Assembly (NCBI GenBank): GCA_021845905.1
Contig: JAJZVA010000008.1
Coordinates: 62,001 to 126,000 of the forward strand
Origin: Pseudomonadota bacterium
GTDB taxonomy: Bacteria > Pseudomonadota > Alphaproteobacteria > Micavibrionales > UBA2020
Length of the DNA: 64,000 bases
Direction of reading: 5' to 3'
In this document: piece after piece, positions 4,322 to 34,616 of the stretch
Layout: each line of letters starts with the position of its first letter
Numbering within the stretch: the stretch's first letter is position 1
Translations under genes and position numbers: made by a program
The notes under the pieces: generated by a model
What the model was told of the DNA's origin: nothing
What the model saw: only the letters and a program-made list of their open reading frames with translations
The model's database searches: none

Positions 4322-5635
4322 TTAATACCTGTAGTGATCCGGCTTGAAGGGGCCGGTGGTGTCTATGCCGAGGTATGCTGCTTGTTTTTCCGTAAGTTTT
4401 GTCAAATGAACGCCCAGTTTATCGAGATGCAGGCGCGCCACTTTTTCATCAAGATGCTTTGGCAGCACATAAACCCTGTTTTCGTAGTTTTTGCTGTTGT
4501 TCCAAAGTTCGATTTGGGCCAGCACCTGATTGGTGAACGATGCGCTCATGACGAAGCTCGGGTGGCCGGTGGCGCAACCGAGGTTGACGAGGCGGCCCTT
4601 GGCAAGGACGATCAGGTGTTTGCCGTCGGGAAAGATCACTTCGTCCACCTGCGGCTTGACTTCTTCCCAGGGCAGGTTGCGCAGGGCTTCGATCTGGATT
4701 TCGCTGTCGAAGTGGCCGATATTGCAGACGATGGCGCGGTCTTTCATCGCGCGCATATGCTCGATGGTGATGACGTCGACGTTGCCTGTCGCGGTGACGA
4801 AGATATCGCCCAGCGGTGCGGCTTCATCCATCGTCATGACCTGATAGCCTTCCATCGCCGCCTGAAGCGCGCAGATGGGGTCTATCTCGGTAATGACGAC
4901 GCGCGCGCCTTGACTGCGCATCGAGGCGGCAGAGCCTTTGCCGACGTCACCATAGCCGCAAACGACGGCGATTTTACCCGCGACCATCACGTCGGTCGCT
5001 CGCTTGATGCCGTCAACGAGGCTTTCGCGGCAGCCATAGAGATTGTCGAACTTGGATTTTGTCACGGAGTCATTCACGTTGATGGCGGGAACGCGGAGCG
5101 TGCCTTTCTTTTCCATTTCATAAAGACGGTGAACGCCGGTGGTGGTTTCTTCAGAAAGGCCTTTTACATCTTTGAGCATTTCCGGATATTTTTCATGCAT
5201 CAGCTTGGTGAGATCGCCGCCGTCATCGAGAATCATGTTTGGCGTCCAGCCGTTCGGGCCTTTGATGGTCTGTTCGATGCACCACCAGAACTCTTCCTCC
5301 GTCATGTTCTTCCAGGCGAAGACAGGGATGCCCTGCACGGCGATGGCCGCGGCGGCATGATCCTGCGTCGAGAAAATATTGCAGGAAGACCAACGGACTT
5401 CAGCGCCAAGGTCAACCAATGTCTCAATAAGGACGGCGGTCTGAATGGTCATGTGCAAGCAACCGGCGATGCGCGCGCCTTTGAGCGGTTGCTTGTCGTG
5501 GAGTTCTTTTTTGATTGCCATGAGGCCGGGCATTTCCGTTTCGGCGATGGAGATTTCCTTTTCGCCCCAGTCAGATAGATGAGCGTCTTTAACTTTAAAA
5601 TCACCTGTGCCGTGGGTTTCGAGTTGTGCCGTCAT
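4322..5635 (-). CDS. ahcY: Adenosylhomocysteinase
   Basis: Hydrolyses S-adenosylhomocysteine to adenosine and homocysteine in the cytoplasm, removing the product inhibitor of methyltransferases. The 437 residues match the family length. The NAD-binding motif [10 protein letters not shown], the substrate-domain segment [13 protein letters not shown] and the C-terminal [20 protein letters not shown]...PDHYRY are typical. The start ATG at 5635 has a GGGAGA sequence just upstream. It lies between ptsP and divL on the same strand; a 72-base gap to ptsP and a 70-base gap to divL leave room for separate promoters. I see no SAH riboswitch-like structure in the leader. Confidence 0.97.
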
Positions 5636-5707
5636 CGCTGTCTCCCTGCCTTATTATTTTTAACGCTGATTAAAGTAATGGAAAATAGTCGTTTGTCCAG
5701 CAAGTTA

Positions 5708-7480
5708 TTAGCTTCTGAAGGAATTAACGATCTGAATGATGCGGTCCGGATCATATTGATCCATAATATATTTAGCGTGATTTTCCGCCTGCGCAATGCT
5801 CAGGCTCCGGATCCGTTGCTTGATGCGCGGCAGGCTGGAAAATCCGAGAGACATTTCGCGGATGCCAAGACCGATCAGCAACGCGGTCAGCTTCGGATCC
5901 GCCGCCATCTCGCCGCAAATGCTGACGGGGATTCCGGCGCGCAGTCCTGCCTGGATACTGAACTCCATAAGCCTTAAAACGGCGGGGTTGAGCGGATTGA
6001 ACAGAGACGCCACCTGATCATTGCCGCGGTCGATGGCGACGGTGTACTGGATCAGGTCGTTTGTGCCGAGGGCGAAGAAATCCGACACGGCGGCGAGGCT
6101 GTCCGCCGAAAGCGCCGCCGCGGGTATTTCGATCATCGTGCCGAGCGGCGGCATGTCGGCGGCCATCGGTGTTTTTTCCTTTTTCAGCGCATCATGACAT
6201 TTATGGAGAATAATCCGCGCTTCTTCGACCTCCGCCGCCGTCGTTACCATCGGCAGCAGGATGCGCACAGGGCCGAAATATCCGGCCCGCAGGATGGCGC
6301 GGAACTGCGCTTCCAGCAGATGCGGTTCTTTCAGCGAGAGGCGGATCGCGCGCAGGCCCAGGGCGGGATTTGCCGAGGCGTTGAGGTGCGCTCCAAGGGC
6401 GCGGGCGAGCTTGTCGCCGCCGATATCGAGCGTGCGGAATGTCACCGGCGCGCCTTTCATGGCGCGGACGACTTCGACGATGGTTTCAAATTGTTCCTCT
6501 TCCGACGGAACCGTGTCGCGGTTCATGAACATGAATTCCGTGCGGAAAAGCCCGATGCCGTTCGCGCCTGAGGCGGGGAGATTGTCTGTTTCGCGTGGAA
6601 GTTCGAGATTGGCGCGCAAAACGATTTCCGTTCCGTCTGTCGTGACGGCGGGTTGCCGTGTCAGCTTGTCGAGCGTGGCCTTGTCGGCCTTGAGGTCCTG
6701 CATGCGGCGTTCATAATGACGTTGCGTCGCCTCCGTCGGATTGAGGATGAGCTTGCCGCCGATGCCGTCGACGATCGCCGGCGCGCCGTGATGCAGGCTT
6801 TCAAGCGCCTTGCGCTCCAGCCCGAGCACGGCGGGCAGGCCGAGGCTGCGCGCCATTACGGCGGTGTGTCCGGTGACGCCGCCGTGAACGGTTGCTATCC
6901 CCGAGAAGCGGCGCGGATCGAGCAGCGCGGTTTCGGCGGGGGATATCTCAAGCGCCAGTACGATTCCACCGGGCGGAACGTCATCGAGAGAGAGAAAAGG
7001 CACGTTCATCAGGATGCGGATGATTCTGTATCCGACGTTGCGCACGTCCTCGCCACGCGCCGCGATATAGGTGTCTTTGATGCGGTTGAATTGTCCGGCA
7101 ATGGAATCGATCTCGCGCCGGATGGCGCTTTCGGCGTTGATCTGGTCTTTGAGAATGCGCGCCCGTACCCCGCGCACCAGCCGCGAGCCGGAGAGCATCG
7201 CCATGTGGGCATCGAGCAGCAGGGCGATTTCCTCCGCTGCGTCGCCCGGTAGTCCTGTCGATTTGCGTTTCAGCGCGAAGAGTTCCTGCTGTGCCTGCCG
7301 CACGGCGGCGTCGAAACGCGCGGCCTCCGCTTCGGTCTGTCCGGGCTCGAGGGCGTATTCAGGCGGCTCCGGATGTTCGATCTGCACGAGATAGGCGGGA
7401 CCCGTCGCGATGCCGTGCGAGACGCCGAGGCCTTTCAATACGATTTCCGCTTCGGCTATTTCTTTACCGTTATTCCTCAT
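5708..7480 (-). CDS. ptsP: PTS enzyme I (phosphoenolpyruvate-protein phosphotransferase)
   Basis: Autophosphorylates from PEP and passes the phosphate to HPr. The active-site histidine lies in GGVTGHTAVMARSLG (about residue 205), and the C-terminal PEP-binding barrel shows LFRTEFMFMNR, FRTLDIGGDK, GTNDLIQYT and the SICGEMAADP motif with its cysteine. It has no N-terminal GAF domain, so it resembles plain enzyme I more than the GAF-containing nitrogen-PTS form. I chose the ATG at 7480 (MRNNGK...), giving 590 residues and an 11-base overlap with the HPr gene; an in-frame ATG at 7513 would add 11 residues but lies deeper inside the HPr gene. It acts with the HPr and EIIA genes directly upstream. 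Confidence 0.93.
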   Translation of the reverse strand: MRNNGKEIAEAEIVLKGLGVSHGIATGPAYLVQIEHPEPPEYALEPGQTEAEAARFDAAVRQAQQELFALKRKSTGLPGDAAEEIALLLDAHMAMLSGSRLVRGVRARILKDQINAESAIRREIDSIAGQFNRIKDTYIAARGEDVRNVGYRIIRILMNVPFLSLDDVPPGGIVLALEISPAETALLDPRRFSGIATVHGGVTGHTAVMARSLGLPAVLGLERKALESLHHGAPAIVDGIGGKLILNPTEATQRHYERRMQDLKADKATLDKLTRQPAVTTDGTEIVLRANLELPRETDNLPASGANGIGLFRTEFMFMNRDTVPSEEEQFETIVEVVRAMKGAPVTFRTLDIGGDKLARALGAHLNASANPALGLRAIRLSLKEPHLLEAQFRAILRAGYFGPVRILLPMVTTAAEVEEARIILHKCHDALKKEKTPMAADMPPLGTMIEIPAAALSADSLAAVSDFFALGTNDLIQYTVAIDRGNDQVASLFNPLNPAVLRLMEFSIQAGLRAGIPVSICGEMAADPKLTALLIGLGIREMSLGFSSLPRIKQRIRSLSIAQAENHAKYIMDQYDPDRIIQIVNSFRS

Positions 7481-10262: not shown

Positions 10263-10962
10263 GGGTGTAACGGTATCCGGCCCCATAGACTGTTTCTATC
10301 GCATCGAAGTCGGCGTCGATATCCTTGAACTTTTTACGAATGCGCTTGATGTGGCTGTCTATCGTCCTGTCGTCGGTGTCCAGCGCGTCGCCGTATGCGA
10401 AATTCATCAGTTGTTCGCGGGATTTTATATGGCCCGGGTGTTCGGCCAGCGCTTTGAGCAACCGTATTTCCGTTGCAGTCATGTCGATGGGAACGGTTTT
10501 CCAAAGGCATGTGCGGCGCGTTTCATCAAGCGTCAGGTCTCCAAGGATGAAAACCTGCGGGGGGGGATTTTCCGGCGCGGGTTGTTGCAATTCCTGCCGC
10601 CTGAGTACGGCGCGGATGCGCTCCAGCAGCAGTTTTTGAGAAAAAGGCTTTGTCACGTAATCATCCGCGCCGTGGCGCAGGCCGGTGAGCTGATCGGCTT
10701 CATCTGCTTTGGATGTCAGAAAAATGACCGGCATTGAGGAGCGTTCGCGGATTTTTCTGAGCAGTTCCAGGCCATCCATGCGGGGCATCTTGACGTCGAG
10801 CACTGCAAGATCGGCCGGCGTTTCGAGAAGCCCCTGCAAAGCGGTTGCGCCGTCGGAATAGGCCGAAACGGCGAAGCCCGCCGCCTCCAGCGCCATGGCG
10901 ACGGAGGTCAGGATGTTTTTATCGTCGTCCACGAGCGCAATCCGTTGCTTCATGCGCCTCAT
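10255..10962 (-). CDS. chvI: ChvI-type response regulator (OmpR family)
   Basis: A 235-residue response regulator. The receiver domain has the acidic pocket VDDD (residues 11-14), phospho-acceptor Asp56 in LAVLDVKMPRMDG, a conserved threonine in FLTSKAD and the lysine in VTKPF. The C-terminal half is an OmpR-type winged helix (TATEIRLLKALAEHPGHI, DDRTIDSHIKRIRKKF). It is the cognate regulator of the kinase encoded next. It begins seven bases after folC; an internal ATG three codons in has a better-placed GAGG and may be the real start. Confidence 0.94.
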   Translation of the reverse strand: MRRMKQRIALVDDDKNILTSVAMALEAAGFAVSAYSDGATALQGLLETPADLAVLDVKMPRMDGLELLRKIRERSSMPVIFLTSKADEADQLTGLRHGADDYVTKPFSQKLLLERIRAVLRRQELQQPAPENPPPQVFILGDLTLDETRRTCLWKTVPIDMTATEIRLLKALAEHPGHIKSREQLMNFAYGDALDTDDRTIDSHIKRIRKKFKDIDADFDAIETVYGAGYRYTHD

Positions 10963-10969
10963 TCCGGAG

Positions 10970-12328
10970 TTACAGTTGGTGTTTCAGGGCATGCCCCACC
11001 AGATACAAGGATCCTGTTACAAGTATACGTTGTGGGGCGGAAAATTGAAAGGCAATCGCCCGTATCGCGCTTTCCAGAGTGGAGGATGTTTTGACGTTAT
11101 CGTAATTCATGGACAGGATCCGGGCGCGCAGATCTTCCGCCGTCAGCATCGGGGCGTCGATCCAGCTGCTATCCACGGTCTGCACGCTTGCGGCATGCGG
11201 CAGAAGATGACCGTAAAAGCTTGAAACGTCCTTTGTGCGCTTCATGGCGGTGATCAGATGCAGGGGCTTTTCATCGTTCCAGAGGATTGCCTGTCTGGCG
11301 AGGGCTTCGGCGCCAGCATCGTTATGGGCGCCGTCCAGCCAGAGTTCCCATCCAGCCGACATCAGGGAAGCAAGCGCCCCTGATGTGATTTGTTGCAGCC
11401 GTCCCGGCCACGATACGCGTTGCAGGGCTTTTTCGAGAAGCGGTTGCCGAAGCATTTCCGCATATGGGCTCTTCTCGATCCCTGCTATGGCCAGCCCCGC
11501 ATTGTAAAGCTGATGTTGCCCTTGCAACGCGGGATTGGGCAGGAGAAAATCATGCTTCGCGCTTTTGTATTCGAAGCTGTCATCGGCGCGGGGCACGATC
11601 GTCCAGTCCCGTCCATAGAGAAAAGCGGGCGATTCAACCGTGGCGGCCTGCTTTAAAAAGACGCCGTTCACGACTTCTTCCTGCGGCGCGATGACGCAAG
11701 GTGAGAGCGGCTTGATGATGCCGGCTTTTTGCGTCGCGATTTCCGGCAGGGTTTCCCCGAGGACATGCATATGGTCGTGCGATATGCTGGTGAGCAGGGC
11801 GATCAGATTTTCACCTTCCACGACGTTCGTCGCGTCGAGACGCCCGCCGAGTCCCGTCTCCAGCAAAACAACGTCCGCGGGCAGGCGCGAGAAGGCCAGA
11901 AAGGCAAGCGCGGTGAAAAATTCGAAGAACGAAATTTCCTCGCCGGCCGCGGCGCGCGCGCATTCGTCGATCAGCGAAAGCAAAAGATCCGGTGCGATGT
12001 TCCGCCCGCTGAGGACGATGCGCTCGTCGAAGCTGACAAGATGCGGCGATGTGTATTTGTGCGCGCGCAGGCCTGCCGTTTCGAACGTTGCTTGCAGGAA
12101 AGCGAGCGTCGATCCCTTGCCGTTGGTGCCGGCGACGTGAAAAGTGAACGGCAGACGCAGATGAGGGTTCCCAAGCGTTTTTAAAAAATGCAGCAGGTTC
12201 TTGAGGTTTTCGGGATAAAGCGGGGGGTGCTCTGCGAAAACGCTACGGATCGCCTGCTCGACGGCTGGATGGGGCGAGAAAGTCCAGTCAGGCGACTCCA
12301 TGCTTTCGGCGGATTGAGTCCCTGTCAT
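10970..12328 (-). CDS. folC: Bifunctional folylpolyglutamate/dihydrofolate synthase
   Basis: Adds glutamate to dihydropteroate and to reduced folates in an ATP-dependent Mur-ligase-type reaction. The ATP-binding loop is VAGTNGKGST, and YTSPHLVSFDERI, LETGLGGRLDATN and ISHDHMHVLGETLPEIA are signature segments; WLDGAHNDAGA marks the C-terminal domain. At 452 residues it is of ordinary length. It follows accD by 18 bases on the same strand, an arrangement common in proteobacteria, and leads straight into chvI. Confidence 0.95.
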   Translation of the reverse strand: MTGTQSAESMESPDWTFSPHPAVEQAIRSVFAEHPPLYPENLKNLLHFLKTLGNPHLRLPFTFHVAGTNGKGSTLAFLQATFETAGLRAHKYTSPHLVSFDERIVLSGRNIAPDLLLSLIDECARAAAGEEISFFEFFTALAFLAFSRLPADVVLLETGLGGRLDATNVVEGENLIALLTSISHDHMHVLGETLPEIATQKAGIIKPLSPCVIAPQEEVVNGVFLKQAATVESPAFLYGRDWTIVPRADDSFEYKSAKHDFLLPNPALQGQHQLYNAGLAIAGIEKSPYAEMLRQPLLEKALQRVSWPGRLQQITSGALASLMSAGWELWLDGAHNDAGAEALARQAILWNDEKPLHLITAMKRTKDVSSFYGHLLPHAASVQTVDSSWIDAPMLTAEDLRARILSMNYDNVKTSSTLESAIRAIAFQFSAPQRILVTGSLYLVGHALKHQL

Positions 12329-12346
12329 GTCAGCGGCCTTTTGACG

Positions 12347-13288
12347 CTAGCTTTTTGATTTTTCTTTTTTGTCTTTTTTTCCGCGTCCGCTTTGCTTGTC
12401 GGCGACGGGCGGTGTGATTTCCGTCGGAGATTTTCCGAGCTTCTTTTGCATCAGGATATTGACCAGCGTCACGATTTGCGCGCGCAACTCCTTGCGCGGA
12501 ACGACAAGGTCGACCATGCCGTGATCGCGCAGATATTCCGCCGTCTGGAATCCTTCGGGCAGGTTTTCGCGGATGGTTTCCTTGATGACGCGCGCGCCGG
12601 CGAAGCCGATTTGCGCGCCCGGTTCCGCGATGTGAATGTCGCCCAGCATGGCAAAGGAAGCCGAAACGCCGCCGGTCGTCGGATCGGTGAGGATGACGAT
12701 ATAGGGCAGGCGGGCTTCCTTGACGAGTTCGACCGCCACGACGGAACGCGGCATTTGCATCAGCGAGAGCATGCCTTCCTGCATGCGCGCGCCGCCGGAA
12801 GACGGAATGGCGATGAAGGGCGCCTTGAGCAGAACGGCGAGCCGCGCCGCGGTGAGCAAGCCGTCGCCGACGGCCGCGCCCATCGAGCCGCCCATGAAGC
12901 TGAAATCGAACGCGGCGATGACCGCCGTTTCTCCGCCGATGGTGCCTTGCGCGACGACGATGGCGTCCTTGCGCTTCGTTTTGGATTGCGCGTCCTTGAG
13001 ACGGTCGATGTATTTTTTCTTGTCGCGGAACTTGAGCGGATCCGGCTCCGTTTTTGGCAGGTCGATCAGCTGGTAATGGCCGGGATCGAACAGCATCTCG
13101 AGGCGCGTCATCACGTCCATGCGCAGATGGTGGTCGCAGTGGTGGCAGACGTTCAGGTTTTTGACAAGTTCCTGATGATGAAGCATGGACTGGCAACCCG
13201 GGCATTTCTGCCAGGTGTTGTCGGGGATGTCCTTGGGCGTCATCAACGCTTTGATTTTCGGACGGACGAAATTGGCGATCCAGCTCAT
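12347..13288 (-). CDS. accD: Acetyl-CoA carboxylase carboxyltransferase subunit beta
   Basis: Beta subunit of the carboxyltransferase that makes malonyl-CoA for fatty-acid synthesis. The N-terminal zinc ribbon is visible as CPGC and CHHC (residues about 29-51), followed by the crotonase-fold core with FMGGSMGAAVGD, SSGGARMQEGML and LTDPTTGGVSASFAM. Length is 313 residues; the last 30 are a lysine-rich tail after LGKSPTEITP that is not conserved in the family. It is the first gene of the accD-folC-chvI chain as seen here. Confidence 0.96.
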   Translation of the reverse strand: MSWIANFVRPKIKALMTPKDIPDNTWQKCPGCQSMLHHQELVKNLNVCHHCDHHLRMDVMTRLEMLFDPGHYQLIDLPKTEPDPLKFRDKKKYIDRLKDAQSKTKRKDAIVVAQGTIGGETAVIAAFDFSFMGGSMGAAVGDGLLTAARLAVLLKAPFIAIPSSGGARMQEGMLSLMQMPRSVVAVELVKEARLPYIVILTDPTTGGVSASFAMLGDIHIAEPGAQIGFAGARVIKETIRENLPEGFQTAEYLRDHGMVDLVVPRKELRAQIVTLVNILMQKKLGKSPTEITPPVADKQSGRGKKDKKEKSKS

Positions 13289-25630: not shown

Positions 25631-26923
25631 ATGAAAAGCCAGACAAAAGCCATTCCGCTGACCAGCCTCCAGTTGCAGGAGTTGCGGTGCAGTTATCAAA
25701 AAGGAATGACACTTTTTCATGAAGGGGATGATAGAAACTGCGCTTACATCATCGAAAAAGGCGAGGTTGAAATCAGCGTCGTCAAGGACGGCAATAAAGT
25801 GCCGCTTGTGCGCCTTGGAGAAGGCGAGGTGTTCGGCGAGGCGGCGCTGATCGGATCCGGAAAACGGTCGGCGACGGCTATCGCGACGGAAGATTGCGAA
25901 GTGTTCCGCATCTTTCCGTGCATTCTGCGCGACAGCATTTTGCGGCTTGATCCGCTGGTCGGCCTGCTGATGAGCCTGCTGGTCAACCGCTACAGAAAGT
26001 GGCGTTACGTTTCGCCCGAATTCGCCGCCGAGGCCGGCGTTGTCGAACATGCGAAAGAAGATCTGGCGCAGGTCGATAAAGCCGATGGTTTTCTGAACGA
26101 CCTCAACATGCAGAAAAAAATCGCCCTGCAGGAATTGCGCATGGCGCAGGAAATCGTCGAAGCGGTGGAGAAAAACGAACTCGGGCCTTATTTGCAGCCC
26201 ATCATGACGCTGCCGGATCGCAAGCTGGTGGGTTTTGAAGCTTTGATCCGGTGGCGGCATCCGGTGAAAGGCATGGTGCCGCCCGCGGATTTCGTTCCGG
26301 TGGCGGAGCGCACGAATATCGTTTCCCGCATCGACATGATGATGCTGAAACGGGTTTGCGAGATCGTGCCCTCCATTCAGAAGACCGCCGGTTCCGCCGG
26401 ACGGAAGATTTACGTCAGCGTCAACCTTTCGGGCACGCATTTTGATTCAGACGATTTTGCCGACGAGGTGATAGACATCGTCCGCCAGAGCAAGGTGGAT
26501 CCGGCGCACATCGTGCTTGAAATCACCGAAAGCGCCTTGATGGGCAATCCGCAAACGGCGGAAGCCATGCTCCGCAGGTTCAAGGCGCATGGGTTGACGA
26601 TCTCTCTCGATGACTTCGGCACGGGATATTCCAGCCTGAGTTATCTGCACAAATTTTCTATCGACATTCTGAAGGTGGATCAGTCGTTCGTGAGCGATAT
26701 TCACAATAAAAACAGCAAGAGTTTCGACGTGGTGCGGGCGATCGTTTCGCTCGCGAAAACATTTAATTTGAGCACCGTAGCCGAAGGGATTGAATATGAA
26801 GAGGATATCGTCGCCCTCACGGCCTTGGGTTGCGACAGCGGGCAGGGGTACTTTTTCAGCAAGCCCATGCCGGTGGATAACGTTCTGGACTTTGTCAAAG
26901 AGAGCATCGAAAAGTACGGATAA
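25631..26923 (+). CDS. Cyclic-nucleotide-binding domain plus EAL phosphodiesterase
   Basis: A 430-residue soluble protein joining an N-terminal cNMP-binding domain (about 20-140; LGEGEVFGEAALIGSGKRSA is the phosphate-binding cassette) to a C-terminal EAL domain (about 175-425). The c-di-GMP phosphodiesterase residues look complete: FEALIRW, VSVNLSG, LEITES, SLDDFGTGYSSL, ILKVDQSF, AEGIE and GQGYFFSKP. This predicts c-di-GMP hydrolysis controlled by a cyclic nucleotide or related ligand. It is transcribed alone, divergent from xseA. CAGGGG precedes the ATG. Confidence 0.92.
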   Translation: MKSQTKAIPLTSLQLQELRCSYQKGMTLFHEGDDRNCAYIIEKGEVEISVVKDGNKVPLVRLGEGEVFGEAALIGSGKRSATAIATEDCEVFRIFPCILRDSILRLDPLVGLLMSLLVNRYRKWRYVSPEFAAEAGVVEHAKEDLAQVDKADGFLNDLNMQKKIALQELRMAQEIVEAVEKNELGPYLQPIMTLPDRKLVGFEALIRWRHPVKGMVPPADFVPVAERTNIVSRIDMMMLKRVCEIVPSIQKTAGSAGRKIYVSVNLSGTHFDSDDFADEVIDIVRQSKVDPAHIVLEITESALMGNPQTAEAMLRRFKAHGLTISLDDFGTGYSSLSYLHKFSIDILKVDQSFVSDIHNKNSKSFDVVRAIVSLAKTFNLSTVAEGIEYEEDIVALTALGCDSGQGYFFSKPMPVDNVLDFVKESIEKYG

Positions 26924-28524: not shown

Positions 28525-29178
28525 TTATGCCGCCATGGCCGGACGCATTTGCCGGACAGCTTGTTTGCGTTCAGATGTCAGCTTGAATTTTGCAGGCGAT
28601 ATAACGGTTTCCATCGTGCCGCTCGCGCCGATTTTTTCCTGTTCGGCCATGAAAGCCTTCATTTCGGCTTTGAATGCCGCCGCGATGTCGAAGTTTTTGC
28701 TTTTTTCTGGCTGTTCGACGATGGCCAGTAGTTCCGACCAGGGCTTGTTGCTCAAGGGATGACGACGGCGCTGCGTGAACGCATCTTCAAGGCTGGTGTT
28801 TTCAGCTTGTTTTGTTTTCGCCTGTTTTTGCATCAGGGCCATTTCAGCCTTGAAAACGGCGGCAAGCTCTTCCGCCGAGCTACGACGCGTGAGCGGCGTG
28901 ACGAGGGCGATATCAACCTTCTTTTTCAACCTGAGGATGGGGCGCGCTTTTTGCGTTGGTTTTGTTTTCGGCTTGGAGACGGAGCGGAAAGGCTGTTTTG
29001 CCTCCGGGATAAAAGACTTCGTCTCGAAGAATCTGGATTGGAGATTTCTTGATTTCAGAAATGTAGATGAATAAAGAATAACCCGCGCTTTTGGACGGGG
29101 CGGCACGGCTTGCCCTTTTTTCAAGTCAAATACATGCGTCAAATCGGCAAAAGAATTGTAGTCGAAAGTCCCCATCAT
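28525..29178 (-). CDS. Unknown protein with an internal repeat, downstream of the prepilin-like genes
   Basis: A 217-residue soluble, strongly basic protein of no recognised family. Two copies of a short helical unit are visible, AAVFKAEMALMQKQAK and AAAFKAEMKAFMAEQEK, about 80 residues apart, each followed by a proline/charge-rich stretch. A good Shine-Dalgarno sequence (GGGAGGGG) precedes the paired ATG codons at 29178 and 29175. It is separated from the upstream prepilin-like gene by 230 bases and is on the same strand; whether it belongs to that system is unknown. Confidence 0.65.
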   Translation of the reverse strand: MMGTFDYNSFADLTHVFDLKKGQAVPPRPKARVILYSSTFLKSRNLQSRFFETKSFIPEAKQPFRSVSKPKTKPTQKARPILRLKKKVDIALVTPLTRRSSAEELAAVFKAEMALMQKQAKTKQAENTSLEDAFTQRRRHPLSNKPWSELLAIVEQPEKSKNFDIAAAFKAEMKAFMAEQEKIGASGTMETVISPAKFKLTSERKQAVRQMRPAMAA

Positions 29179-29408: not shown

Positions 29409-29416
29409 TTATTCGC
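29385..29416 (-). repeat. Perfect 11-base inverted repeat at the end of the prepilin-like operon
   Basis: GCGAATAAAAT (29385-29395) and its exact complement (29406-29416) flank a 10-base loop and include the stop codon of the 757-residue gene. It may form a hairpin at the mRNA 3' end, but no T-run follows, so it is not a standard terminator. Confidence 0.6.
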
Positions 29417-31682
29417 AAACGCAGGTCGAATAGATGTAATAGCCGCCCGTGCCGTTCGGTTGGGAGCATGAGTTCGTCGCGCCTTGATTGAAGCAGGCGT
29501 TCCCAAGCTGAATGGCGAGGGGGCGGGAGCTCGTGCCGCTTGGCGCCTCTCCTCCGTTCAGGCCCCATGCATAGCTATAGGTTGAGCAAGTACTGAAAAC
29601 TGTATTCCATGGTCCCCAAGTGTTCGCTATGCAGTCATAGGTCTGCTTTTGTATTTGGAAGCCTTGCTGTCCGTTGGGGCACCCTATGTTTTGCCACTGG
29701 TCGATCGGAGAACAGGTGCAAGTATCGCTGGTGGTCGTCCATGCTCCCCACGAATTGGTGGAGCAGTTCATTTGCGCTGTTTGCGTCACCGAGCCGCTAT
29801 ACCCCGCGCCATAACCTGCCGCCTGACATGTGATTGTTTGTGTTTTCGTGGCGCTTGGGTTGCAGACGCAGTCAGTTTTTTGTGTTGATGTCCAGAAAGG
29901 CCCTTGCGCCGGCGCCGTGGGGTTTGAGGGATCGCAGGTAAAGCTCTCTGTTGTTGTGTAAGTACCTGTATATCCCGCAGGACAGGCCCTACTGGGATTT
30001 GTCCATGTACTTGGTTGGCAGGCGCAAGTACTGCTGAGTAAGGTTGATGAGTATTGGGGAACACCGCCTGAACATGTCTGCGTGGTTTGCACGGTGGCGT
30101 TTCCACTCCAGCAACTGCTGCAGGGATATCCGTAGTAATCATTGCAGGTCATTGTCGTTTGAGTCGGAGGAGAGGAAGTGCATGCGGTGCAACTGCCCGT
30201 TGATGAAATATAGACCCACTGCGACCCGCTTGATGTGTTTTTGCATTCGAATGTTTTGGTCAGCGTGACGTCTGGCGGGCTGGTGGTTATGGATTGACCG
30301 ACGCTGCCTTGCGGAAGCGTAAACGTATCATATTGTCCGGTGGTGTTATTCCAGCATAATTTCACCGAACGCGACGTGCATGGGACGCTTGACGTGCAGA
30401 CAAGATGCCCGCTTGAACTAATTCCGGTGACATAGCTGTTTGGCGGACATGTCACTTGTTGTGTGGGGGTGCATGCCATTATGCCATCTGAAAAACCAGA
30501 GCTATATCCCGAAGGGCATTTCATATCCATATTTGTTTTGTAGCAGGAGCCCGTCCCTGACGTGGAGCAAAGTTGATTGGCGTTGAGCGTGCCGGAGGTA
30601 TTCACGGCTACGGAGTCCGGATAGTTACTGCCGACCTGCAAGGCGGCTGTCGGTGCGGGTAACGTAGGAAGATATGCTTTATCAATAGTGACTTTGCCGG
30701 CCGTTGCCGCATCTCCGGCACCTATCGTGTCTACGATGTTCGTGTCAGTATCGTCTGTTACGGCCCACAAAGGCGTGGAAATAGAAGCGAAAAACCTCAG
30801 CGTGTCGTCAAAATGCGCCGGGCCGGGCGCTGTGCTGTAGTTAGCTATATAATATATGGCCTGGGGTTGTTGCTGGGCATATATCTGGCAGTTGAATGAA
30901 TCAAAAGTCGTACCGACCGGAGGGCAGGGGTAAACCGGGTGATAAAGGTCGCTCTCATCGGTATAGGCGCCTTTTCTATCCGGACCATTGCTGATGAGGA
31001 CATACTGGATGGTGCTCGGTGGATTGATGACGGATGGAGGGTTGGAGGGGTTGACGCTTCCGTCCCGAACGTCGATGCCGCCGAGGTTCGGGTTATAGTT
31101 TTGCGAAGTGCTTGCCAGACTTTCCGTCACGGCGTATTGGAATACGTCGCCATAACCATCTATCGTGTCGAATTCAGGAATGCCGATCGTCAAAAAAGGC
31201 ACCTCGCCGCGGCGCACGCGGTTTGTCCACGCGAGAGGGGTCGTGCTACTTGTCGGGGGCCAGTAGCTATACGTCCAGTTCGTTAGCGGAGGAGTTGCGG
31301 AAAAAACGCGATCCGATGCCTGAACGCAATAGTTGTTTTGAGTGTACTTATTGTTGTTATTGCAATCGCCGACGGCAACGCTGGTCGTGTCCGTACAATC
31401 TCCCGCCAAGCCGTACCTTGGATCGGAGCGCGGCACGAATGGGGCTGGGCAAGGGTAATGGCCGTGCGACTGCAGATAATTGTTTATGGCCTCGGCTATG
31501 ATGCTCTCGTTGTTAAGTGTCGTGTTCAGAGCGACTGTCTTTTGATATTTGACGACGACGGAACCGATTGAACCGATGATGATGCCAATGACCAGTATGG
31601 AAATGGCCAATTCCAATAATGTGTAGCCCGCGGAAAATTTTCTATGGCAATCTGTTTTTCTAATCATGGTGGGGGTGAGCAT
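29409..31682 (-). CDS. Giant prepilin-like protein with cysteine-rich repeats
   Basis: A 757-residue protein with a class III-type prepilin signal: a basic leader ending in FSAG, then YTLLELAISILVIG with glutamate at +5, cleaved after the glycine. A pilin-like region follows (YPCPAP, DTIDGYGDVFQYAV, YVLISNGPDRKGAY, HFDDTLRFFA), then the shared module CPPNSYVTGISSSGHLVC (about 412-429). Residues about 432-700 are a cysteine-, tryptophan- and threonine-rich array with repeated units such as NSWGAWTTTSDTCTC and NTWGPWNTVFSTC, resembling thrombospondin-type repeats in spacing. I chose ATG 31682 because GGAGG is well placed upstream; it overlaps the preceding gene by 19 bases. A secreted adhesin or pseudopilin tip is inferred. 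Confidence 0.8.
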   Translation of the reverse strand: MLTPTMIRKTDCHRKFSAGYTLLELAISILVIGIIIGSIGSVVVKYQKTVALNTTLNNESIIAEAINNYLQSHGHYPCPAPFVPRSDPRYGLAGDCTDTTSVAVGDCNNNNKYTQNNYCVQASDRVFSATPPLTNWTYSYWPPTSSTTPLAWTNRVRRGEVPFLTIGIPEFDTIDGYGDVFQYAVTESLASTSQNYNPNLGGIDVRDGSVNPSNPPSVINPPSTIQYVLISNGPDRKGAYTDESDLYHPVYPCPPVGTTFDSFNCQIYAQQQPQAIYYIANYSTAPGPAHFDDTLRFFASISTPLWAVTDDTDTNIVDTIGAGDAATAGKVTIDKAYLPTLPAPTAALQVGSNYPDSVAVNTSGTLNANQLCSTSGTGSCYKTNMDMKCPSGYSSGFSDGIMACTPTQQVTCPPNSYVTGISSSGHLVCTSSVPCTSRSVKLCWNNTTGQYDTFTLPQGSVGQSITTSPPDVTLTKTFECKNTSSGSQWVYISSTGSCTACTSSPPTQTTMTCNDYYGYPCSSCWSGNATVQTTQTCSGGVPQYSSTLLSSTCACQPSTWTNPSRACPAGYTGTYTTTESFTCDPSNPTAPAQGPFWTSTQKTDCVCNPSATKTQTITCQAAGYGAGYSGSVTQTAQMNCSTNSWGAWTTTSDTCTCSPIDQWQNIGCPNGQQGFQIQKQTYDCIANTWGPWNTVFSTCSTYSYAWGLNGGEAPSGTSSRPLAIQLGNACFNQGATNSCSQPNGTGGYYIYSTCVCE

Positions 31683-33025
31683 ATCAGACCTCCGGTGGAT
31701 GAAAATCCCGTCACAATATTTCCACCAGTACATGAACTTGGGGAAATGTTTTTTATATTTATCGTCTCTGCGCAGATGGGTTTTGATTGCGCGATACCCG
31801 TCATAATTTCATTGTTGCAGTTTTTACCGGGGCCCAAAAAAAGACTTTGATAAAAAACGTTCCCGGTATTTGCATCTTTATATGAATCGCTCTGGATATT
31901 ATCTGCCTGAACGTTGCCGTTGACGTCAAGCGGCGCGGTGGGCATATTCGTGCCGATGCCGACATAGCCGCCGCCTTTGTTTTCTATCTTGTTCATTTTC
32001 GAAGAGTAGGCGATCCATTCGTCGGATGCGATTTGCAGGCTTGTCATCACGAAAGCGTCGTCATAATAATAGGGTCCCGGCACCATTGAGTAGATGTCCG
32101 CGGCGCCGGCTTGCGTTCCTGTCGCGCTTTGCAGGAAGGTCGAGTCATTGTTGCAGTTTTCGTTGTCTCGGCCGGTCGATGGAGATGGATTTGCAACGCC
32201 GTTCGGCCCCGTGTAGATCGGCGTCATGTCGCAGGGAACCGTCTGGATGCCGTTATAGTTCCATGCACCGCGGCCGTTGGGACCTGCGGACAAGACGACG
32301 TACATGAAAGAATTAATCACCTGATAGGCAGGAGGCAGGTTTTTGTTGATCATCGGCACGATTTTATTCTGCGCGGTGTCGTACTGCTCGACATTGATGG
32401 CGCCGCCCGTATCGATGTCGAATGTGTTTGGATCCGTGTCGTAATAAGACACCGCGTAGGTCATGCGGTTCCCCCAGCCGTCGACCGTGTCGTTCATGCT
32501 GATCCCGAGATCGATGTAAGGAAGCGTGCCGATCAGCACGGGGTCGTTGATCTGCGGACTGGCGATACTGCAGTTGCATCCGCTTGAGCCATCAAAAGGC
32601 TGAAAGGTCGGATTGTTGGCGGTTGCGCGGGCGCCGTTGACGACGCAGAGGCCGTTCGGCGCCGGCATGCAGTAAGGCCATGTGACGTTTGGGGGATAGT
32701 CCGTGCCTGTTGGAGGCGTCGTTTGCGGGCTTGGCCCCGCAGGCCAGTTCAGGTTGATCGACGTGCAATCGGCCATGCCGGCGGTGGGTGAAAGAGGCGA
32801 CGTGTCTGGATCAGCCGGGCATGGCAGGGCGTGATGTGTGTACACATAGCTGGATAATGCATCGTTGATCGTTTGTTCCCGCGCTACGGTCACGCTCTCC
32901 CGCTCGCCGTGAAGCCATTGCCCGTATTCATTGAGCAGCATGCCCGCAATGATGCCAAAGAGCGCAACGGCGATCATGATTTCCACGATCGAAAAACCCC
33001 GGGATGTTTTAAAGCCATTGTTCAT
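31664..33025 (-). CDS. Large prepilin-like protein 2
   Basis: About 453 residues. The prepilin signal is KTSRG followed by FSIVEIMIAVALFGIIAG with Glu at +5. The exported part parallels its neighbours: LPCPADPDTS, NDTVDGWGNRMTYAVS, YVVLSAGPNGRGAW, DNENCNND, YYYDDAFVMTS. It then has YVGIGTNMPTAPLDVNGN, a phrase typical of the collar of phage tail fibres and adhesins, and ends with the shared module NIVTGFSSTGGLIC. ATG 33025 and ATG 33037 are both possible starts. It lies 15 bases or fewer after the third prepilin-like gene. No assembly genes are nearby, so it would need a type II or type IV machinery encoded elsewhere. Confidence 0.8.
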   Translation of the reverse strand: MNNGFKTSRGFSIVEIMIAVALFGIIAGMLLNEYGQWLHGERESVTVAREQTINDALSSYVYTHHALPCPADPDTSPLSPTAGMADCTSINLNWPAGPSPQTTPPTGTDYPPNVTWPYCMPAPNGLCVVNGARATANNPTFQPFDGSSGCNCSIASPQINDPVLIGTLPYIDLGISMNDTVDGWGNRMTYAVSYYDTDPNTFDIDTGGAINVEQYDTAQNKIVPMINKNLPPAYQVINSFMYVVLSAGPNGRGAWNYNGIQTVPCDMTPIYTGPNGVANPSPSTGRDNENCNNDSTFLQSATGTQAGAADIYSMVPGPYYYDDAFVMTSLQIASDEWIAYSSKMNKIENKGGGYVGIGTNMPTAPLDVNGNVQADNIQSDSYKDANTGNVFYQSLFLGPGKNCNNEIMTGIAQSKPICAETINIKNISPSSCTGGNIVTGFSSTGGLICSPPP

Positions 33026-33040
33026 GCGCCGTTCCATTCC

Positions 33041-34249
33041 CTAATTGCAAATAAGTCCCGTGCTGCTAAAGCCGACAAGAAACTGACCGGGAGGGCAAGA
33101 TTGGCCTGCCGAAGGAGCCAACACGGGAATCGTGCTTGTTGAGCATTTGATACTACCATCTTTCAATTCCGTCACATACCTCACCTGTCCGGCAGGGGCG
33201 GTGCAGACATTGCCGCTGGCATTGGTGCCGCTGGCGGGGCCGGCAAAATTGTTAGGAGCCCAGCAGTTTTTTCCTCCTTTATCGCATATATTCGATACGT
33301 AAATCTCTCCTTGCGAGTACAGCGTTCCATTGACCTGCAATTCTTGTCCCAACGGCGTGCCGGTCGGGTAGCCGACTCCGACATAATCGGCATTGCGGTT
33401 GTATATATTACTGCTGCCCGGGGCTGTAAAACTCCAGAGCTGGGTGAGGGTGTATTTGGAATAGTACAGGATATCGTCAAAATAATATTGATTGTGCACA
33501 AGGCTGCGCAATCCGGTTACGAATATATAATTGTTATTGCAGTTCTCGTAATCCGCCTCACCCGGCACGCAGGGTACGGTTATGATGCCGTCAGATGTAT
33601 AGGCTCCCATATGGTTGTCTCCTGCTGACCAGATGGCGTAATTGGCTGCCGGGTCAAGATTGATCATGTCAGGCGTCTTTATGTCGATGACGCCGTTAGC
33701 ACCCTCTCCATATGTTGCCGGACTGAGAGATGCAAATGAAACAGCGTAATTAATTTGGTAGCCCCAGGCATCGAGCGTGTTTTGCAGAGCTGCGTTGGCA
33801 AGCCCGGCGCCGACCGATTGATTGATCGTTTTATAGGGGATGCCGCCAATATATATTGGATCAGGGCCGGCATGGGGGTTGACCCCTGTATGGGTTGCGC
33901 CTGCTATTTTGCAAATTCCATTCGGCATGCATTTTCCTTCGGGCAGGGTGTACTCCAAGTATTGGCATGCAGCTGCCTCCCCGGATCCGCAGACGCCGCA
34001 TTCGCAACCTGCATTCGGATCGCCAAGCGGCAATGCCGGGGCAGAAGGATAGGGCATGCGAGAGTTCATGGCGCTATAGTTGCTAAGCGCGCTGTTAATG
34101 CTGTTTATTTTATTAAATGTTTGTTTGTAAAGGTATGTTGAATAATAGGCATAGTAGCTCGTCGCGATGCCGGACAGTAAAAGTCCCGAGATCACAATCA
34201 CGATCGAGAGCTCGATCAGGCTAAATCCTTGCTTTTTATCCTTGTGCAT
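33041..34249 (-). CDS. Large prepilin-like protein 3 (first gene of the operon)
   Basis: A 402-residue protein, first of three in a row. The signal is HKDKKQG followed by FSLIELSIVIVISGLLLSG with Glu at +5. The exported region contains NTLDAWGYQINYAVSFAS, YAIWSAGDNHMGAY, ADYENCNNNYIF and HNQYYFDDILYYSK, each with a counterpart in the other two proteins. The C-terminus is the shared module CPPGQFLVGFSSTGLIC, ending one residue later. A variant of the VGIGT...VNG phrase is present (YVGVGYPTG, LQVNGTLYSQG). The gene looks more AT-rich than most of its surroundings. Surface attachment or pseudopilus tip function is inference. Confidence 0.82.
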   Translation of the reverse strand: MHKDKKQGFSLIELSIVIVISGLLLSGIATSYYAYYSTYLYKQTFNKINSINSALSNYSAMNSRMPYPSAPALPLGDPNAGCECGVCGSGEAAACQYLEYTLPEGKCMPNGICKIAGATHTGVNPHAGPDPIYIGGIPYKTINQSVGAGLANAALQNTLDAWGYQINYAVSFASLSPATYGEGANGVIDIKTPDMINLDPAANYAIWSAGDNHMGAYTSDGIITVPCVPGEADYENCNNNYIFVTGLRSLVHNQYYFDDILYYSKYTLTQLWSFTAPGSSNIYNRNADYVGVGYPTGTPLGQELQVNGTLYSQGEIYVSNICDKGGKNCWAPNNFAGPASGTNASGNVCTAPAGQVRYVTELKDGSIKCSTSTIPVLAPSAGQSCPPGQFLVGFSSTGLICN

Positions 34250-34540: not shown

Positions 34541-34616
34541 TGGTGGACCCTGGGGGATTTGAACCCACGACCTACTGATTAAGAGTCAGCTGCTCTACCA
34601 ACTGAGCTAAGGATCC
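34541..34616 (-). tRNA. tRNA-Lys (anticodon CTT)
   Basis: A 76-base cloverleaf with encoded CCA on the minus strand. Acceptor arms GGATCCT and AGGGTCC pair over seven bases with one G-T pair; the anticodon stem GCTGA/TCAGT encloses CTCTTAA, anticodon CTT. The T-stem (GTGGG/CCCCC) has one T-C mismatch, which is mildly unusual. A promoter-like sequence lies just upstream. Confidence 0.95.

Follow-up and report, generated by a model that had tools for sequence, protein, structure and literature searches.

Three adjacent genes of a Micavibrionales bacterium probably encode modular minor pilins for the adhesive tip of an MSHA-like pilus

The window analysed in this work, a stretch of 64,000 nucleotides from a Pseudomonadota bacterium of the order Micavibrionales (GenBank assembly GCA_021845905.1, contig JAJZVA010000008.1, positions 62,001 to 126,000), contained three adjacent genes for large homologous prepilins, designated A, B and C. 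Their products are probably modular minor pilins which form the adhesive tip of the cell's single retractile pilus, a pilus resembling the mannose-sensitive haemagglutinin (MSHA) type. Each protein combined a prepilin signal and a predicted pilin core with a short neck similar to the mosaic adhesive trimer (MAT) fibres of Bdellovibrio and with a Cys-bracketed module, to which C added a long Cys-rich arm. The features were located as follows (aa, amino acids; pLDDT, predicted local distance difference test):

33041..34249, minus strand: gene A, a 402-aa prepilin with signal ...QG/FSLIE (open reading frame, ORF, and N_methyl match, E 2.9e-6)
31664..33037, minus strand: gene B, a prepilin with signal RG/FSIVE, of 457 aa from the first ATG or 453 aa from the next ATG
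29409..31682, minus strand: gene C, a 757-aa prepilin with signal AG/YTLLE, whose start overlaps the end of B
33455..34228, minus strand: predicted signal helix and GspG/PulG-type pilin core of A (residues 8-265; AlphaFold2, pLDDT mostly 85-97; PulG match)
33290..33418, minus strand: MAT-like neck of A, IYNRNADYVGVGYPTGTPLGQELQVNG (about residues 278-320; neck profile matching Bdellovibrio fibre tips)
31868..31999, minus strand: MAT-like neck of B, IENKGGGYVGIGTNMPTAPLDVNGNVQA (strict motif; A-neck vs. B-neck profile, E 1.8e-22)
30567..30749, minus strand: diverged neck of C, GKVTIDKAYLP..AALQVG (profile E 2.1e-18 for A-C and 1.5e-14 for B-C)
33041..33286, minus strand: Cys-bracketed terminal beta module of A, ending GFSSTGLIC (sequence; predicted strands 355-401, pLDDT about 65-78)
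29412..30395, minus strand: Cys-rich distal arm of C, with repeats of ~50 residues closing with CxC and ending CVCE (Cys count and CxC spacing)

All three ORFs presented a class III prepilin signal with Glu5 (GFSLIE in A, GFSIVE in B, and GYTLLE in C), that is, a Gly before the cleavage site and a hydrophobic helix, as in type IV prepilins of this class. In the Pfam scan N_methyl was over the cut-off for A and B and just under it for C (18.2 vs. 21.2 bits), and in the genome-wide search the three proteins were over it. For C, the ATG preceded by GGAGG gave 757 aa, whereas the first ATG would give 774 aa. The proteins were clearly homologous by BLASTP (1e-30 for A-B, 1e-11 for A-C, and 5e-11 for B-C), and after removal of the signal helix their local scores were 303 (A-B), 168 (A-C), and 202 (B-C), as compared to maxima of 70-87 in 300 shuffles. 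An earlier sequence-only reading, which had described three adjacent prepilin genes with Glu at +5 and with a similarity not confined to the signal, was thus confirmed in both respects. The shared motifs that it listed were present as well; its final G-F/I-S-S-T/S-G-L-I/V-C module was terminal in A and B but appeared mid-protein in C. Past the signal, no convincing Pfam, NCBIfam or PHROG family was found for the trio. Neither the N-terminal Pfam domain of shufflon PilV (E <= 1) nor the PilY1 beta-propeller (PF05567) matched A, B or C.

The shared middle of the three proteins is predicted to be a pilin core of the GspG/PulG type. The AlphaFold2 model of A (single chain, 24 sequences, mean pLDDT 75.5), mostly above 85 for residues 8-265, displayed the long helix (11-62) plus strands expected of a pilin fold, and its best structural matches were pilins and pseudopilins. 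The first of them with VIA-align was PulG (1t92; Z 6.4, root-mean-square deviation 3.0, 99 of 108 residues), a middling Z that was read together with the D.WG..Y motif. The common pattern D-x-WG-xxxx-YAV ... S-x-G-xx-x-GAY ... F-DD corresponds to the GspG/PulG arrangement, for which the GspG of locus L085 (DPWGNPYQY ... SLGRDGRPGG ... DADI) served as comparison. The link between core and GspG rests on fold and motif, since in the profile comparison with a real GspG the alignment covered no more than 67 N-terminal residues; the GspG equivalog profile remained below its cut-off (22.5 vs. 88.85 bits). Structure prediction, which had been suggested as a check, gave a PulG-like core for A and a poor model for C (mean pLDDT 60). 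The core alone was found as ordinary prepilins of 240-300 aa in other Alphaproteobacteria (51 of 385 genomes; E <= 1e-10), and among the matches listed those reaching the end of the profile came from the order of the window only. Taken together, this fits a scheme in which extra modules were grafted onto an older pilin, as in modular pilins, the core of A (residues 8-265) being followed by the neck and the Cys module.

About 35 residues past the F-DD segment, A and B shared the neck motif N-x-x-G-x-VG(I/V)GT-x-x-P-x-x-x-L-x-V-x-G, whose strict form occurred in 0.6% of shuffled sequences. The profiles of the three necks, which also cover the neighbouring end of the core, matched one another with the E-values listed above, and the position of the neck relative to the core was about equal in A, B, and C. 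When a profile of 16 necks was compared with all PDB sequences, the top match was Bd2133 of Bdellovibrio (8ond, 6.9e-16), followed by four further Bdellovibrio fibre tips (8oml, 1e-7; 8ojn, 3.5e-7; 8ol4, 8e-5; and 8on4, 8e-4), which we take from their entry names alone to be MAT tips of the same published set; the sixth match was myelin regulatory factor (0.048). According to the Bdellovibrio paper, intertwined trimeric beta-helices have such a motif as their capping loop; the paper also mentions myelin regulatory factor (PMC10769870). The neck profile (A4) corresponded to this capping loop, with C showing it only in diverged form. In contrast with MAT fibre proteins, each member of the trio had one copy of the motif and not a long repeated beta-helix, and Pfam scans recognized neither S74 nor any other MAT tip domain; the MAT paper, for its part, mentions no pilin (PMC10769870). 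In the single-chain model the neck of A had a low pLDDT, which an obligate trimer would explain but disorder would as well.

Beyond the neck, A and B ended in the Cys-bracketed module (C..G.FLVGFSSTGLIC in A), whereas in C this module was followed by ~320 residues of repeats. Mature C contained 38 Cys, with CxC spacings of 52, 50, and 99, and its orthologues in relatives ranged from 580 to 1018 aa with a variable number of repeats. No convincing family or fold was found for the arm with Pfam, Foldseek or VIA-align; the structural matches were brief or unlikely, the best having a Z of 4.0 over 40 residues.

The genome to which the window belongs (2.42 Mb, 98.8% complete) appears from its gene content to encode one complete-looking retractile MSHA-like type IV pilus. 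The sequence-only reading had noted no assembly ATPase or secretin gene near the trio; this held for the contig of the window, and such genes were located elsewhere in the genome, on other contigs. Contig C9 carried an MshL-like secretin (TIGR02519, 6.5e-67), two PilT-family ATPases (PilT/PilU) over the cut-off, a prepilin peptidase gene (PF06750, 1.1e-28; observed on this contig and not through a genome-wide search), a GspF/PilC protein, a TPR protein, an ABC ATPase, and an AraC-type regulator. Contig C3 carried a PilB/GspE-like extension ATPase with a domain related to the cyclic di-GMP (c-di-GMP)-binding domain of MshE. The likeness to the MSHA pilus thus lies in the secretin, which was closest to MshL, and in the extension ATPase; as differences, the secretin scored under the MshL equivalog cut-off (225.6 vs. 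250.2 bits), two PilT-family ATPases were present in the same locus, and an ABC ATPase and a permease-like protein were among its genes. As for type II or type IVb genes, which had been proposed as something to look for elsewhere, there was no GspG-family match (PF08334) and no sign of type IVb, and an MSHA-like type IV pilus was found. At the limit of the search, the genome had four class III prepilins, namely A, B, C, and an ordinary-sized protein of 249 aa on contig C9 which is the probable main pilin. With a single pilus of this kind, A, B, and C would be the only candidates for minor pilins among the class III prepilins.

The ABC ATPase and the permease-like protein were found inside the pilus locus of contig C9 (L075, 4829-5650 and 11833-12615), and the pair is reminiscent of the PilGHI transporter of Myxococcus pili. 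A second locus with a secretin, a GspE-like ATPase, and a GspF-like protein was observed on contig C17 (L073, 2665-4575 and 8077-15809); it included three proteins of 222-238 aa with a GN(A/V)LFLILIAVALF-type helix and no class III signals, and its gene content suggests a second, uncharacterised type IV filament-like system.

The linkage absent from the window was observed in relatives. In two genomes of the same genus (G004, locus L060, and G005, locus L059) the trio stood beside the orthologue of the main pilin and/or the AraC, permease, and secretin genes, and a like arrangement occurred elsewhere in the family (L052, L062, L068, and L070). At least three members lay side by side in all 20 relatives' loci that were read, so the set does occur together, one of the points that had been put forward for checking. 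The family was present in 45 of 55 relatives (E <= 1e-20), with exactly three matches in 22 of them, some of the counts above three being split matches. The proposal of an expanded family did not hold in the sense of a lineage-specific expansion, as mostly three members are kept across the order. A strong MshL-like secretin (E <= 1e-40) accompanied the family in 44 of the 45 genomes bearing it and in none of the other 10, which had neither; the lone mismatch (G014, family without strong secretin) is 79% complete. Within family f7, a single genome (G028) had both. PilY1 was found in none of the 55 relatives, the same search being positive in two of four other genomes. In the tree, the A and B orthologue groups formed starred clades across two families and the long C-type proteins nearly one group, while the short members of family f3 were too diverged to sort. 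The family loci came from metagenome-assembled genomes labelled Alphaproteobacteria and in one case (L034) 'Micavibrio sp.'.

Some relatives presented variants of this organization. One genome of the same genus (G007) had 17 family matches (E <= 1e-20), many of them prepilins of ~300 aa clustered on several contigs, a real expansion of the trio family in one genome. Family members in ORFs of 1009, 1015, and 1259 aa, exceeding the proteins of the window, were found in G003 (contigs C67 and C28). In G052, a single contig of 2,458,610 bases, the trio of locus L069 was short and without the long C arm. On either side of it a secreted Cys-rich protein with no Pfam match was encoded (4916-7060 and 10838-12991; 714 and 717 aa). 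A DLSGS (MIDAS-like) motif was present in one of these two proteins and internal repeats in the other, and they may act as separate tip adhesins in place of the arm. Directly beside the trio of G054 (L054, 14056-16446) there was an inverse autotransporter beta domain with a lectin-like Laminin_G_3 domain. A B-type member of G016 (L068, 11321-12274) seemed to be frameshifted, with an end in an unrelated frame and a second piece just downstream.

Considering these results, we propose that prepilin peptidase would cleave each protein, after which the N-terminal helix and GspG-type core would pack into the filament. Given their bulk, A, B, and C would most likely be placed at its tip. The neck behind the core would act like the capping-loop segment of trimeric beta-helix fibres such as Bdellovibrio MAT and phage S74 fibres, with the Cys-bracketed module beyond it and the long, putatively disulfide-rich repeat arm contributed by C. 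An adhesive head of this kind, carried by the pilins themselves in a genome that gave no PilY1 match, would bind cells, surfaces or another ligand, and retraction by PilT/PilU would pull. The co-occurrence of the paralogues and the similar spacing between core and neck in all three make a mixed A-B-C trimer plausible, if speculative. A more specific version, in which the tip is an obligate A-B-C heterotrimer joined through a phage-fibre/MAT-type beta-helix neck and capturing other bacterial cells with the disulfide-rich arm of C, is offered only tentatively and is rather doubtful as it stands.

Several observations weigh against the assignment to a pilus tip. In the genome of the window, the trio and the pilus machinery lie on separate contigs. 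The neck amounts to a single short motif that is weak in C, and the structure models are single-chain and therefore silent on trimers. Foldseek gave no PulG match below E 0.001 and its pilin matches were weak; the PulG Z is middling. The association of the trio family with the secretin (Fisher p 3.8e-10 over 55 relatives) is inflated by kinship, the line for a strong secretin was drawn after the scores had been seen, and one genome (G018) had one PilT over the cut-off without the trio.

Since the genome encodes ComEC (5.7e-58) in addition to retraction ATPases, a small probability has to be left to a competence pilus, in which the large modules of these minor pilins would bind DNA and retraction would deliver it to ComEC. 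Large DNA-binding modular pilins do exist, such as the minor pilin ComZ of Thermus (PMC8179133). However, domain and profile scans recognized no DNA-binding module in the trio, its neck resembles fibre adhesins, and ComEC is unspecific, being found in 10 of 14 control genomes. It is quite improbable that A, B, and C are GspG-like pseudopilins of a type II secretion system with extended domains pushing substrates: in spite of the GspG/PulG-like core and the profile match of its N-terminal part, no PF08334 protein was found in the genome while the control was positive in the same search, the secretin was closest to MshL, and both PilT and PilU were present. To our knowledge, type II secretion systems do not have these two ATPases. 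Thus, of the pilus-tip or pseudopilin adhesins suggested by the sequence-only reading, the former are well supported by the pilus in the genome and by the trio in the pilus locus of relatives, in contrast with the latter. Surface adhesins that stand alone, outside any pilus, and are held in the inner membrane by a signal helix left uncleaved would be compatible with the separation of trio and pilus genes in this genome, but are hardly credible with peptidase signals and Glu5 intact and with the pilus co-occurrence and co-location in relatives.

Most of what is known about the tip complexes of type IV pili comes from a few model systems, where binding is done by PilY1 or by single modular pilins. 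Tip adhesion in type IVa pili involves PilY1 and the minor pilins FimU/PilVWXE, which also have a priming role; CofB, from a type IVb pilus, is a homotrimer, and GspIJK lack fibre modules. Compared with PilY1 systems, the adhesive part would here be fused to the pilins of the trio. CofB/TcpB of type IVb pili and the GspI-GspJ-GspK tip of type II systems, also large or trimer-forming tip minor pilins, can be likened to it by description (PMC8179133). Modular type IV pilins are recognized and very diverse, with 264 catalogued architectures; an S74 module, a phage-fibre chaperone, is present in some of them (Raynaud et al. 2021, PMC8179133). Those of Streptococcus sanguinis (PilB/PilC) and others have, like the trio, an N-terminal pilin module and bulky extra modules, which are probably displayed at the tip and probably adhesive (PMC8179133). 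The trio differs from them in being a conserved set of three paralogues with a MAT-like neck, in having no Pfam-recognized S74, vWA or lectin domain, and in the Cys-rich arm of C, outside known families. For Micavibrio aeruginosavorus, the pil genes are described as dispersed in the available text of the genome paper, which also reports eight proteins with prepilin signals, encoded in three operons, and high expression of some pilus genes; within that text the architecture of the trio is not described (PMC3189940).

Micavibrio-like bacteria, among them predators, appear to belong to the order of the window. Across this alphaproteobacterial order, a conserved trio is tied to one kind of pilus and, judging by its sequences, joins pilin anchors to a fibre element that serves bacterial-surface recognition in Bdellovibrio and phages. 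If the proposed role is right, a candidate attachment organ of the group has been named, and prey or surface recognition becomes directly testable by gene removal. If the heterotrimeric capture tip is also right, pilus tips, phage tail fibres, and the prey-recognition fibres of Bdellovibrio would be linked in an order that includes epibiotic predators.

Regarding the surroundings of the trio, a tRNA-Lys gene lies upstream (34541-34616), local GC at the trio was about 5-10 points under that of the right flank, and promoter and terminator scans remained near chance level. An origin from a mobile element or island was set aside, the family being conserved across the order and B having no match in phage records. 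Directly downstream of C, on the same strand, there is a 217-aa ORF (28525-29178) without Pfam or NCBIfam match. On the opposite strand near the trio (25631-26923) a protein with cyclic-nucleotide-binding and EAL (c-di-GMP phosphodiesterase type) domains is encoded, and a regulatory link between it and the c-di-GMP-binding extension ATPase of the pilus is conceivable.

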